A stretch of DNA of 64,000 bases from the NCBI RefSeq assembly GCF_003284895.1, contig NZ_QMDV01000004.1, forward strand, positions 2,501 to 66,500. The letters are read 5' to 3'. Made by a program: the position numbers and the translations under genes. Numbering within the stretch: position 1 is the stretch's first letter; every line of letters starts with the position of its first letter. The notes beneath the pieces were generated by a model. That model was not told the origin of the DNA, ran no database searches, and worked only from the letters and a program-made list of their open reading frames with translations. This stretch comes from Pontibacter arcticus (GTDB lineage: Bacteria; Bacteroidota; Bacteroidia; Cytophagales; Hymenobacteraceae). Positions 30,266-34,077 of the stretch are shown here, piece after piece.

Positions 30266-30946
30266 ATGGAAGACAGATTAGACGATATCATAAACGGATT
30301 GCACCAGAAGTCACGTACCAAGCAAGCGATCTACCGCAATACACTTCAGACTTTCAATAAAATGAAAGAAATCTCGAAGGAACTGGTAGCTGAATTAACC
30401 GAACGGATAACCAAACAGGATGCAGACGTCATTATCGAGTATAAAAATGTAAGCGAACACGAGTTTCATATAAAATTTTCCGGCGACCTGCTGATCTTTG
30501 TGATGCACTCCAACATCGTTACGTTTCCGGATGATTATGAAATTATGCGCAGCGAGTATGTGGAAGAAGACTTTAGGAGACGCTTTTTTGGGCATATCAT
30601 GGCGTACAACTTTATGGCCGATACCATTAAGTATAACCGCACCGACGACCCGGGCTACCTGGTGGGCCGCATGCTCATCAACATCGAAAATCACTTTTGC
30701 ATTGAAGGCGTAAAGCAACTCGACCTGCCACAGGACAAAGTATCGGAAATAGCTAAAAATGAAATTAATGATCAAGGCTTGCGCATTATTGTGGAAAGTG
30801 CCATGATCGCTGCTGTTAATAATGATCTGATGGGCCAGAATGTAACCGATTTAGAGCGAATCACACTTAAACAGAAACTGGAAAATTCACACCTGTCCAC
30901 CCCGCGCAAACTCGGCTTCCAGATAAGCCAGGAACTTACCGTTTAG
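30266..30946 (+). CDS. conserved hypothetical cytosolic protein, 226 residues
   Basis: No signal peptide, no membrane segment and no motif I recognise. The N-terminus (about 1-55) is charged and helical, possibly coiled coil (KQAIYRNTLQTFNKMKEISKELVAELTERI). A mixed alpha/beta middle (VIIEYKNVSEHEFHIKFSGDLLIFVMH) and a helical C-terminus follow. It looks like a well-conserved Bacteroidota protein by composition, but no function is assigned. It is monocistronic with its own terminator. Codon use matches its neighbours. Confidence 0.75.
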   Translation: MEDRLDDIINGLHQKSRTKQAIYRNTLQTFNKMKEISKELVAELTERITKQDADVIIEYKNVSEHEFHIKFSGDLLIFVMHSNIVTFPDDYEIMRSEYVEEDFRRRFFGHIMAYNFMADTIKYNRTDDPGYLVGRMLINIENHFCIEGVKQLDLPQDKVSEIAKNEINDQGLRIIVESAMIAAVNNDLMGQNVTDLERITLKQKLENSHLSTPRKLGFQISQELTV

Positions 30947-31000: not shown

Positions 31001-31741
31001 TTAAGATGCTTCTACTTCCTGGCGCAGCTGCGCGAGGGCAGTACGGAGTTCGGGAAGACTGTTTTTTAACTGCTCGTAGCTATTGATACAGAAGTACTGG
31101 CTTTGGTAGGTCTCCTTAATGTAGGCGGTATCCAGGATTTGGGTGATATCGAAATCATACTTTATACTTTCTTCTGATACCGATAACTTGCTTTCGCCGA
31201 CAGATGAAAGTATCCCTGCCCCGTAAATTCTGGCCTCTCCTTCGCTGTTTCTGAAAAGCCCGAACTCAATGGTGTACCAGTAAATACGTGTAAGTTTATC
31301 TACAATATCAGGCCGGTCGATGTGCTCCAGGGCAAGCTGAGAAAGTTCCGATAAAAACTCGCAGTAAACCGGAATGGTAAGCAGCGGTACGTGCCCGAAC
31401 ACATCATGAAACATATCCGGTTCTTCCAGGTAATCCAGCTGGTCCTTGCGGCGAATCCAGACGGTAGCCGGAAACTGCCTATTGGCAATCAGCTGAAAAA
31501 ACAGGGCATCGTCTACAATGCCGGGCGCAGCCACTACCTCAAAACCAGTCAGGGGCTTCAGGCGGGCATTTACTTCGTAGAAGTTAGGAATGCGATTCGG
31601 TTTAAAACCGACCTTCTCCAGGCCTTCAAAAAACTCGGGTACGGCTTTGCCGGGCAGGTTTTGCATCTGGCGCTCAAAAAGGATGGCCCATACTTCGTGG
31701 TTTTCGGGCGTGTAGCTGTTATAAAGTTGTGTCAGACTCAT
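31001..31741 (-). CDS. phhA: phenylalanine 4-monooxygenase
   Basis: 246 residues, normal for the bacterial enzyme. The iron-binding His pair is in MFHDVFGHVPLL (about 113-124), and the iron Glu lies in WYTIEFGLFRNSEGEARIYGAG, which has the conserved Y-G-A-G-I-L-S-S-x-G-E sequence downstream. It hydroxylates phenylalanine to tyrosine using a pterin cofactor and oxygen, in the cytosol. The gene is preceded on the minus strand by a promoter, a tyrosine-rich leader ORF and an intrinsic terminator, which together suggest control by tyrosine supply. Confidence 0.95.
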   Translation of the reverse strand: MSLTQLYNSYTPENHEVWAILFERQMQNLPGKAVPEFFEGLEKVGFKPNRIPNFYEVNARLKPLTGFEVVAAPGIVDDALFFQLIANRQFPATVWIRRKDQLDYLEEPDMFHDVFGHVPLLTIPVYCEFLSELSQLALEHIDRPDIVDKLTRIYWYTIEFGLFRNSEGEARIYGAGILSSVGESKLSVSEESIKYDFDITQILDTAYIKETYQSQYFCINSYEQLKNSLPELRTALAQLRQEVEAS

Positions 31742-31786
31742 GTTACTAAGCTTTATAAAATGTATGATTTGATAATGACAGGAAAC

Positions 31787-31813
31787 AAAAAAGCAGTGAC
31801 TTGCGCCACTGCC
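31787..31813 (-). terminator. intrinsic terminator (attenuator) in the phhA leader
   Basis: On the minus strand GCAGTGGC (31812-31805), a GCAA tetraloop and GTCACTGC (31800-31793) form an 8-bp stem (one G-U) followed by TTTTTTG. It sits 46 nt before the phhA start codon and no other minus-strand gene ends here. It can therefore only limit read-through into phhA. Confidence 0.8.
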
Positions 31814-31894
31814 TGAATATCTTTACTAAGATGAGAGCTGGATTAATAGGTGCTCTCTAGTAGTTTTTATAAGTGATAGGGGCCTGGCAGTAGC
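31805..31894 (-). promoter_or_regulatory. putative antiterminator pairing in the phhA leader
   Basis: The leader-ORF segment GCTACTGCC (31894-31886, covering codons 44-47) is complementary over 9 bp (one G-U) to GGCAGTGGC (31813-31805), the 5' arm of the terminator. The two structures are mutually exclusive. A ribosome stalled in the tyrosine run (codons 33-43) would leave the segment free to pair. A ribosome reaching the stop codon would cover or disrupt it. A further small hairpin, GAGAGC/GCTCTC (31857-31852 and 31838-31833), lies between the two arms. Confidence 0.6.
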
Positions 31895-32024
31895 GATACA
31901 TGCAATAGTAATAGCAATAATAGCTATACAGGTTCAGGCAATAAGTAGAAAGGGAATGCAGCAGCTCCCGGCCAAAGAAATTTGGCTGTACAGGTAAAGA
32001 TGCAAATGAAGCTGCGTGTTGCAT
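31857..32024 (-). CDS. tyrosine-rich leader peptide of phhA (55 residues)
   Basis: ATG at 32024 and TAG at 31859-31857. The peptide has 11 Tyr in 55 residues. Eight of them fall between residues 33 and 45, arranged Y-S-Y-Y-C-Y-Y-Y-C-M-Y-R-Y-C; four Cys are interspersed. Codons are mostly TAT. The N-terminal half is ordinary. It stands between a promoter (32042-32072) and an intrinsic terminator (31787-31813), upstream of the gene for the tyrosine-forming enzyme phenylalanine hydroxylase. Its most economical reading is a leader peptide whose translation senses charged tRNA-Tyr. A free-standing Cys/Tyr-rich peptide is the alternative. Confidence 0.65.
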   Translation of the reverse strand: MQHAASFASLPVQPNFFGRELLHSLSTYCLNLYSYYCYYYCMYRYCQAPITYKNY

Positions 32025-32041
32025 AAAGTATGAATGTACTG

Positions 32042-32072
32042 CAAGTATACTGATTTTTGTTTTGAACGCAAT
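32042..32072 (-). promoter_or_regulatory. promoter of the phhA leader
   Basis: On the minus strand ATTG (32072-32069), a 19-bp spacer and TATACTTG (32049-32042) each match TTTG / TAnnTTTG with one mismatch. The leader ATG follows 18 nt after the -7 element. Confidence 0.5.
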
Positions 32073-32155
32073 ACTTAAAAAAGTGTTATCTGTTTTCTAA
32101 TAAAGCTGTAATACAAACCATTATCAAATTGGAATCGATTTCCAGCAGCTTTTAA

Positions 32156-32191
32156 AAGTATAAAGGCAGCCATTTGGCTGCCTTTATACTT
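32156..32191. terminator. terminator of the ABC-F gene, stem includes AAGTATA
   Basis: AAGTATAAAGGCAGCC / GGCTGCCTTTATACTT, a perfect 16-bp stem with an ATTT loop. The outer 7 bp of the stem are exactly the AAGTATA/TATACTT motif abundant in this genome. It lies just after the ABC-F stop. Confidence 0.85.
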
Positions 32192-32202
32192 TAATTTTAT
32201 AC

Positions 32203-34077
32203 TTACATCAGCTCAGCTAATTCGAGCCAGCGCATTTCCTTTTCTTCCAGGTCGTTATTTATACTTTCTATTTCGGAGGCCCAGGCACGAAGCTGGTTAT
32301 GGTCGGTGGTGGTGCCGGCGTTCAGCAGCTCGGTTACTTCTGTTTTGCGAGCCTCCAGTTTAGCCATATCTTTTTCGAGCTGCTCGTACTCTTTTTTCTC
32401 GTTGTGAGTAGGCTTGCGCTTGGCTGTAGTTACAGGCTCAGGCTTTTTCTCTACAACAGCTACCGGTTTCGGCTTTTCCTGTTCTACTTTTTCCTGCTCC
32501 TTCAGCCACTCGCGGTAATCGGTGTAGTTGCCCGGGAAGTTGCGGATCTGGCCATCGCCTTCAAACACAAATAAATGCTCTACCAGCCTGTCCATAAAGT
32601 AACGGTCGTGGCTTACAATCAGCAGGCAGCCGCCAAAGTTCAGCAGGAAATCTTCCAGAATGTTCAGGGTAATAATATCCAGGTCGTTGGTAGGCTCATC
32701 CAGAATCAGGAAGTTCGGGTTTTTGATGAGTACCCGCAGCAACTGCAGCCGGCGCTTTTCGCCACCGCTCAGCTTGCTTACAAACGTATACTGTTGGGCC
32801 GGCGCAAACTGGAAATGCTGTAAAAACTGGCTGGCGGTGATTACCTCGCCGTTCGCCATTTCCACTACTTCGGCAATATCCTTAGCAATGTCAATTACGC
32901 GCTGGTCGTCCCGGAACGTAAGTTCATCCTGGGTATAATAACCAAACACGGTTGTCTGGCCGGCATCAATTGTCCCCGAATCCGGCGTAATCTTACCGGT
33001 CAGCATGTTAAGCAGTGTTGATTTTCCGGCACCGTTCGGGCCTACAATACCAATGCGGTCTTTTTTCTTGAACACATACGTAAAGTCATCCACAATCTTT
33101 TTATCAGCATAAGACTTTTTAAGATGCTCTACTTCTATGATTTTTCCGCCCTGGCGTGTCGTTTTTACGGATAGCTCGAGTTGCGGACCGGTAATTTTTT
33201 TGGCTGCCTTCTCTTTCAGTTCTTCAAACGCATCTACTCTATACTTGGCTTTGGTACCACGTGCTTTCGGCTGTCGGCGAATCCAATCCAGCTCTTTGCG
33301 CATCAGGTTGCGAGCTTTCTCGGTTTCGGCAGAAGAGGCCGCTTCGCGCTCGGCTTTTTTCTCGATAAAGTAGCTGTAATTGCCTTTGTAAGTATAAATT
33401 TCGCCGCCATCCAGCTCGGCTACTTCGTTGGCCACTTTATCCAGGAAATACCTGTCGTGGGTCACCATCAGCAGGGTCGTGTTCTGGGTCGATAACAGGT
33501 TCTCGAGCCACTCGATCGTATCCAGGTCCAGGTGGTTGGTAGGCTCATCCAGAATCAGCATATCCGGCTCATCAATTAAAACGCGCGCCATGGCTACACG
33601 TTTGCGCTGCCCGCCCGACAGGTGCTTTATCTGCTTATCGAGGTTGTTGATGCCCAGTTTGGAGAGTACCTGCTTTACCTTTACTTCAAAATCCCAGGCC
33701 TGCAATTCGTCCATGCGCTCCATCAGGTGCTGCATTTTTTCGGAACTGGTGTTGGGGTCTTCGATGGCAAGTTCGTACTGCTCTATTACCTGTATGGCTT
33801 CGTTCTGGCCGGAAAAAATAGTCTGGTGAACGGTAAATTCTTCGTTAAACTCCGGGTTCTGGCCCAGAAATCCGATGGAGATCTCTTTGCGAACGCTGAC
33901 GCTGCCGGTATCCGGCGGAAGTTTGCCGGCCAGTACGTTAAGCAAAGTTGTTTTGCCGGAACCGTTTACGCCCACCAATGCAATGCGCTGGCCCTGGCTG
34001 ATTCCGAAATTCAGGTTTCTGAAAAGCCAACGGTCTGCAAAGTTTTTGGCTATATTTTCTGCTGATAGATAATTCAT
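32203..34077 (-). CDS. ABC-F family ATPase (Uup-like)
   Basis: 624 residues with two ABC domains and no membrane segments. Walker A GVNGSGKTT (about 36-44) and GPNGAGKST; signatures HLSGGQRKR and KLSGGEKRR; Walker B MLILDEPTNHLDLDT and FLILDEPTNDLDIIT. The linker (about 240-300) carries the P-site tRNA-interaction helices typical of ABC-F. The C-terminal about 90 residues are charged with a coiled coil (EYEQLEKDMAKLEARKTEV), as in Uup. Such proteins act on the ribosome to relieve stalls. It is monocistronic. Confidence 0.93.
   Translation of the reverse strand: MNYLSAENIAKNFADRWLFRNLNFGISQGQRIALVGVNGSGKTTLLNVLAGKLPPDTGSVSVRKEISIGFLGQNPEFNEEFTVHQTIFSGQNEAIQVIEQYELAIEDPNTSSEKMQHLMERMDELQAWDFEVKVKQVLSKLGINNLDKQIKHLSGGQRKRVAMARVLIDEPDMLILDEPTNHLDLDTIEWLENLLSTQNTTLLMVTHDRYFLDKVANEVAELDGGEIYTYKGNYSYFIEKKAEREAASSAETEKARNLMRKELDWIRRQPKARGTKAKYRVDAFEELKEKAAKKITGPQLELSVKTTRQGGKIIEVEHLKKSYADKKIVDDFTYVFKKKDRIGIVGPNGAGKSTLLNMLTGKITPDSGTIDAGQTTVFGYYTQDELTFRDDQRVIDIAKDIAEVVEMANGEVITASQFLQHFQFAPAQQYTFVSKLSGGEKRRLQLLRVLIKNPNFLILDEPTNDLDIITLNILEDFLLNFGGCLLIVSHDRYFMDRLVEHLFVFEGDGQIRNFPGNYTDYREWLKEQEKVEQEKPKPVAVVEKKPEPVTTAKRKPTHNEKKEYEQLEKDMAKLEARKTEVTELLNAGTTTDHNQLRAWASEIESINNDLEEKEMRWLELAELM

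Follow-up and report, generated by a model that had tools for sequence, protein, structure and literature searches.

What does a short reading frame crowded with tyrosine codons do directly ahead of a phenylalanine hydroxylase gene? The window, a stretch of 64,000 nucleotides of Pontibacter arcticus DNA, carries phhA on its minus strand, and the order along this strand is a likely promoter, a leader ORF (32024-31857), a terminator (31814-31787) and phhA (31741-31001). We read this arrangement as a classical ribosome-mediated transcription attenuator that would sense tyrosine supply and control phhA, and from the sequence we give this reading a probability of roughly 0.88. The kind of attenuator is known; tyrosine as the sensed amino acid, phhA as the target and the breadth of the system in many Bacteroidota appear new. 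The features of the locus are as follows.

30266-30946, plus strand: convergent ORF after phhA
31001-31741, minus strand: phhA, phenylalanine 4-monooxygenase, 246 aa (Pfam Biopterin_H PF00351, E 4.5e-43; NCBIfam NF008877 above cut-off)
31787-31814, minus strand: intrinsic terminator found by the terminator scan, stem-loop 31814-31791 and T run 31792-31787
31805-31813, minus strand: segment 3, GGCAGTGGC, 3' strand of the antiterminator and 5' arm of the terminator
31833-31857, minus strand: linker hairpin GAGAGC/GCTCTC between segments 2 and 3, from the leader fold
31857-32024, minus strand: leader ORF, 55 codons, 11 Tyr, sequence MQHAASFASLPVQPNFFGRELLHSLSTYCLNLYSYYCYYYCMYRYCQAPITYKNY
31882-31894, minus strand: segment 2, 5' strand of the antiterminator, GCTACTGCC (31894-31886) with the adjoining protector partner CAGGC (31886-31882)
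31935-31939, minus strand: segment 1, likely 5' strand of the protector, GCCTG, at codons 29-30 directly ahead of the Tyr run
32042-32071, minus strand: likely leader promoter, TTG (32071-32069), 19 nt, TATACTTG (32049-32042)
32155-32192: palindromic 17-bp stem-loop after the ABC-F gene, called a plus-strand terminator by the scan
32203-34077, minus strand: gene of an ABC-F protein upstream of the leader (NCBIfam ribo_prot_ABC_F above cut-off)

PhhA converts phenylalanine to tyrosine. The first-pass annotation had pointed out that the sensed amino acid would be the product of the controlled enzyme, and Pfam and NCBIfam together support the identity of phhA on which this depends, the NF008877 match being equivalog-level. 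No phhABC-type operon is found at the locus, which is flanked by the convergent ORF and the ABC-F gene. The ABC-F gene was considered as a part of the switch and dropped, as only 3 of the 80 named loci described below have it in the upstream sequence covered, which is 2 kb or less. The stem-loop at 32155-32192 could also terminate the ABC-F transcript, and the leader therefore probably has its own promoter. A promoter had indeed been proposed at 32042-32072. A sigma-70 scan yields no minus-strand promoter (and one on the plus strand, where 1.6 are expected), and the site stands as a predicted one through its resemblance to what we take to be the -33/-7 promoter type of Bacteroidota. A perfect TANNTTTG is found within 40 nt upstream of 30 of 106 leaders, compared with 1.5% of mononucleotide shuffles, and five or six of its six fixed bases are found in 80 of 106, compared with 25%. 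In 37 of these 80 leaders the TANNTTTG-like box ends only 4-6 nt before the leader ATG (L052, L065, L076 and L088 are examples), which suggests nearly leaderless transcripts.

Rereading of the sequence agrees with the earlier description of the leader ORF, which has 8 of its Tyr codons within codons 33-45; the full set is codons 28, 33, 35, 36, 38, 39, 40, 43, 45, 52 and 55. Of the four matches to the pattern YYxYYY in the P. arcticus genome, one is the leader itself, two overlap within low-complexity sequence and one falls in a long gene. The 8-bp terminator with a GCAA loop and six T's ahead of phhA is recovered by the terminator scan, with its core GCAGTGGC-GCAA-GTCACTGC at 31812-31793 followed by the T's. 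Only its distance to phhA needs a small correction, from 46 nt to 45 nt as counted from the last T. Three terminator-like sites are found on both strands of 31700-32250, where 0.2 are expected.

The proposed 9-bp pairing of GCTACTGCC with GGCAGTGGC (31894-31886 with 31813-31805) is present as well and includes one G-U pair. Shuffling the leader segment gives an equally good contiguous helix 2 times in 300, and the duplex of segments 2 and 3 is matched in 1 of 200 shuffles (z -4.4). The fold of the leader RNA, which beats 200 of 200 shuffles (z -3.4), contains a further helix that is absent from the first-pass annotation. This is the putative protector, formed by 31939-31935 with 31886-31882, and the duplex of segments 1 and 2 is matched in 0 of 200 shuffles (z -3.4). 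This third helix, which joins the antiterminator strand to the stretch preceding the Tyr run, likely belongs to the switch; it would explain why phhA is off when nothing stalls. Segment 3 is the 5' arm of the terminator, therefore the 2:3 pairing excludes the terminator, and the 1:2 pairing competes with 2:3. A linker hairpin of other sequence is found at the same place in some relatives, while it is weak or different in some of the eight loci folded.

RNA-level sensing of tyrosine could also be arranged through another device. In a T-box the tRNA binds the RNA directly, and there is no leader peptide. Tyr T-boxes exist in other bacteria, where the charging of tRNA-Tyr controls expression at the RNA level as it would here (PMC1262725, in the part consulted), but no T-box is among the 24 Rfam matches listed for 31600-32250, all of which are below the gathering score. 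That such a device operates here, with the ORF incidental, is thus scarcely believable.

The sequence data establish which parts are present, that their pairings exclude one another and that they are conserved. From this attenuator anatomy we infer a course of events that runs from the transcription start and the translation of the ORF to the stalling and the response to tyrosine. Transcription would begin just upstream of the leader ORF, with a ribosome following. When charged tRNA-Tyr is plentiful, the ribosome would pass the Tyr run and reach or leave the stop codon. Then 1:2 would re-pair, or the ribosome would cover segment 2; segment 3 would be free for the terminator, and its formation would end transcription about 45 nt before phhA. 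Segment 2 of the window sits some 27-35 nt ahead of the stop codon, so that a ribosome at the stop would cover it poorly and re-pairing of 1:2 behind the ribosome is the likely off route. Type A loci of Pontibacter follow the textbook trp attenuator in that their segment 2 includes the stop codon, whereas that of the window does not. When charged tRNA-Tyr is scarce, the geometry would place the stalled ribosome at about codons 33-41, covering segment 1. Segment 2 would then be free to pair with segment 3, no terminator would form and phhA would be made, providing tyrosine from phenylalanine under tyrosine scarcity. The helix scheme is like that of pheL-pheA and pheST of Escherichia coli.

A comparative alignment of phhA upstream regions had been proposed as a check. 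In relatives the Tyr ORF is conserved, and the arms of antiterminator and terminator pair with differing sequences. The 80 named loci together with those of further genomes make 150 loci including that of the window, and 128 are distinct by their last 350 nt; among these L122 repeats L053, L128 repeats L054, and 40 are of Pontibacter type. At least six Tyr in 10 codons are found in 40 of 40 Pontibacter-type leaders and in 0 of 320 control windows taken from the flanks of 20 Pontibacter loci; judged by these counts, the Tyr run is not due to chance. Tyr is the residue most enriched over the control windows, and five leader columns are Tyr in 37-40 of the 40, with TAT and TAC both present. An excess of Ile and Leu over the controls was considered too; it most likely comes from other frames of the TAT repeats, while the Tyr columns survive TAT/TAC swaps. 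Over the whole leader, synonymous to non-synonymous changes number 4775:6207 in the true frame, a slight edge over 3848:6455 and 2642:6515 in the others. The ORF has 46 to 61 codons in 38 of the 40 loci, and 70 and 86 from an upstream ATG in the other two. The strict terminator pattern is correctly placed in 27 of 40, with a mismatch in the others, and the terminator stem appears in the consensus of the longer 40-sequence alignment (A2).

The leader peptide is also tied to phhA across the genus. Used as a query against 50 genus genomes, it finds a relative in 38, once each, at E ≤0.0014 and just upstream of phhA, and no other match is better than E 0.02. The phhA genomes that the query missed are G089 and G099 (L031, L112) and the divergent G028 and G115 (L122, L125), in which a leader is found by direct reading. 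The eight genomes without phhA (no match at 1e-20) give no leader-peptide match at E ≤0.0014; four of them have weak matches at E 0.39-0.74.

How well is the pairing itself supported within the Pontibacter-type loci? RNAalifold on all 40 sequences (alignment A1) gives 0 pairs and no antiterminator, and on A2 it gives the protector and the terminator only, without two-sided changes. In our view the antiterminator is missed because MAFFT mixes the subtypes; pairs were therefore counted on 21 cleanly aligning sequences of types B and C, and the other 19 (16 of type A, two of type D and the window) were set aside. In these 21 sequences 97.8% of cells agree with the 16-pair antiterminator, compared with 21.6 to 41.9% when the partner is slid by 1-3 columns and 90.8% when the partners are shuffled. 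Covariation scores 0.170, whereas the shuffles average 0.063 and 0 of 500 reach the observed score. Two-sided changes fill 23 cells, compared with a mean of 9.2 after shuffling. They involve three pairs, a number not above that of the shuffles (2.8), and they separate type B from type C, so that they may be few events. The protector consensus in A2 is UUGCC/GGCA; three of its four pairs are present in 39 of 40 sequences, the remaining one in all 40. Two of these four pairs fail in the window, whose own shifted register is GCCTG/CAGGC.

Taken one locus at a time, the Pontibacter-type contiguous helix has a mean z of -0.29, with 1 of 40 loci at or below 15/300. For the 2:3 duplex the mean z is -2.2 (14 of 40 at or below 2/200), and for the 1:2 duplex it is -0.66 (5 of 40 at or below 10/200). 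Segment 3 prefers its own segment 2 over all other-type ones in only 7 of 40. Because the Pontibacter antiterminator consists of several short stems, it is poorly tested by looking for one contiguous helix. The single-locus shuffles are modest or weak in Pontibacter and give no locus-by-locus statistical proof. This weakness, and the shortness of each part, would suit an ordinary terminator that happens to follow a fortuitously Tyr-rich frame. Such a coincidence has next to no probability in our estimate, in view of the 40/40 against 0/320 count, the fixed position with one leader per genome and the recurrence in distant families.

The putative tyrosine attenuator is found well beyond the genus. 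Tyr leaders precede phhA in Marivirga (MNFTHNTYYYYYQSPKGIGNGSVMHIL), Fulvivirga (MNSKYYYYYYYRITPFGVGVVCS), Roseivirga (MNNAYYYHYYHATQVRNGRHMF), Echinicola, Aureispira and further families of the class; by this sequence evidence, the system extends outside Hymenobacteraceae. Leaders were scored as Tyr plus 0.6 His in 8 codons, with a threshold of 3. Terminator and some upstream ORF are found together in 77 of the other 88 loci (86 distinct), and 66 of these 77 ORFs score at least 3. At class level 46 genomes have a phhA match, and 40 were taken (omitted were the P. arcticus genome, two family members and three others); 21 of these 40 loci have a terminator and an ORF, and 18 of the 21 score at least 3, one of which (L158) repeats L101. 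A plainer score, at least four Tyr or at least five Tyr+His in 10 codons, is passed by 44 of 60 other named, 17 of 28 family and 15 of 40 class loci, compared with 31 of 1226 controls, counts that include repeats. By this score no Tyr/His run is found in 16 of the 60, 11 of the 28 and 25 of the 40.

Beyond the 40 Pontibacter-type loci, 81 distinct loci have a Tyr or Tyr/His leader and a terminator. Pairing between leader end and terminator reaches p≤0.05 in 58 of them and p≤0.01 in 33; among loci without such a leader, 3 of 14 reach p≤0.05 (200 dinucleotide shuffles of the leader end, with the repeats L053/L122, L054/L128 and L101/L158 removed). The antiterminator outside the Pontibacter type is often a clean helix of 7 to 11 bp, its letters differing by lineage, for example GUUUCGGAAU/GUUCCGAAAC in L130 and AGUGGAC/GUCCACU in Aureispira (L109). 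Among 66 loci outside the Pontibacter type, 15 have a contiguous helix at 3/300 or better, and in 20 it outdoes 95% of swaps. The GC-rich Hymenobacter loci L052, L054 and L065 are poor in the simple helix test, and reading them suggests that their pairing reaches into the terminator loop. These loci form a large natural set of attenuators of different sequence with the same job, in a phylum where such control is little studied.

The leader ORFs beyond the 40 have 13 to 35 codons, with a median of 23. This bears on whether the ORF encodes a functional small Tyr-rich protein, with the terminator separate or constitutive. The conserved length within the genus would fit a protein, but the much shorter ORFs elsewhere, the lack of a Pfam match for the leader ORF and the double use of its end as an antiterminator strand make this very improbable.

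For an attenuator, the remaining matter is what the Tyr codons report. The TAT:TAC ratio is 281:85 in the Pontibacter leaders, compared with 40:166 in phhA of 20 of these loci and 328:322 in 46 ORFs of the window; expressed as codon use, the leaders have 77% UAU for Tyr and their phhA genes 19%. The TAT-biased leaders are L003-L031, L045-L049 and L112-L121. Elsewhere the bias is slight (102:62 against 386:356), and it is not significant in the window leader alone (8:3, p 0.22). Slower ribosome movement and an unstructured run are two possible effects of the bias, which may otherwise point to tRNA modification. Some leaders carry other codons in the run: those of Algoriphagus and Litoribacter mix His with Tyr. 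Mixed leaders such as MNPTPRTYVHHSYHLLH are seen in L062, L067, L072, L084, L097, L101 and other Algoriphagus/Litoribacter loci, and many loci of this type have clean GGAAUAGG/CCUAUUCC antiterminators.

The signal could then be something other than tRNA-Tyr charging. Two examples are the decoding state of UAY/CAY tRNAs and a free metabolite sensed through arrest by the nascent peptide. The TAT bias and the mixed His/Tyr leaders would fit such a signal, as would the conservation of non-Tyr residues in the Pontibacter-type leaders (Gly in all 40, Ile and Ala each in 38). Seen by eye, however, the peptide outside the Tyr run varies by lineage while the run stays, and the bias, slight elsewhere, could serve RNA structure or slower decoding. 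We regard this as unlikely. One special form of it starts from queuosine, which in many bacteria is present in the tRNAs for both Tyr and His. Pterin and queuosine both start from GTP, and it is for this reason conceivable that the leaders read UAY and CAY decoding beyond tyrosine supply and could couple the pterin-dependent hydroxylase to queuosine status, a proposal that we consider decidedly speculative.

Sensing of tyrosine supply agrees with what the P. arcticus genome offers for making tyrosine. It has no match to PF02153 (prephenate dehydrogenase) or PF00800 (prephenate dehydratase) and is 99.94% complete by the tool's figure; both searches are positive in 14 of 14 control genomes, the family-wide PF02153 search in 13 of 14. 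Chorismate synthase is present. With no TyrA or PheA domain match, PhhA looks like the only tyrosine source of this genome, and judging from its gene content the organism probably imports phenylalanine and converts it to tyrosine by means of PhhA. HPPD is present too, so tyrosine is probably also degraded, which does not decide the role of PhhA. Across the 50 genus genomes, 19 have phhA and a strong TyrA, 23 have phhA without a strong TyrA (five of these with weak TyrA matches, E 3e-5 to 6e-4), eight have a strong TyrA only and none has neither (Fisher p 0.005, kinship ignored). A published result agrees with this: in Echinicola vietnamensis, PAH is important in some defined media and is proposed to make tyrosine beside a second route (PMC7311316, in the part consulted). 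The leader is carried by two other species of Echinicola (L105, L108). With the leader in hand, the question of the role of PAH becomes directly testable.

The known leader-peptide attenuators respond to Trp, Phe, His, Leu, Ile/Val, Thr and Cys (in part after PMC1262725 and PMC11802643). No Tyr-responsive one, nor any ahead of phhA, was found in the literature searched; an earlier mention is possible in the surveys by Merino and Yanofsky and by Lopatovskaya and colleagues. The pheL-pheA and pheST attenuators of E. coli, described with their regulatory codons in the consulted part of PMC11802643, likewise join a leader peptide to a regulatory amino acid linked to the enzyme. They sense Phe and control Phe synthesis or Phe-tRNA synthetase, whereas at phhA Tyr would be sensed and Phe is the substrate. 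The same portion of PMC11802643 describes the aroR leader ahead of the aroF operon of Corynebacterium glutamicum, which resembles the phhA leader in having a leader peptide with a Tyr codon (Phe-Tyr-Phe) at an aromatic operon; it is reported to respond to Phe, with Tyr availability having no effect. Another regulator of phhA is PhhR, a protein activator of the catabolic phhABC operon in some gamma-proteobacteria (PMC1173090, in part); the phhA leader would be an RNA switch that fits a biosynthetic role. Among Bacteroidota aromatic genes, a putative attenuator is given for another operon, pheA-hisHb-aroA-aroQ-tyrA of Bacteroides thetaiotaomicron, in table 7 of PMC1173090, the consulted part of which does not state a leader peptide or amino acid. 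For Flavobacterium, the consulted part of PMC9723704 gives clues, in general terms, for leader-peptide attenuation of amino-acid operons.

Group g5 of the family contains a more distant type of phhA. In L144-L151 the region some 100-200 nt upstream of phhA holds a different leader without a Tyr run, approximately AK..CLTNIRP..DGVGL.CRYGS, together with a terminator GCCCGACTCC...GGAGCCGGGC; the leader ORF contains a GGAGTCGGGC-like antiterminator. This is perhaps another attenuator. Many genomes of the group have two tandem phhA genes about 1 kb apart, and in L135-L137 and L139-L143 a leader of the YYAYAYY or YYYAATYY type is found ahead of one phhA copy.
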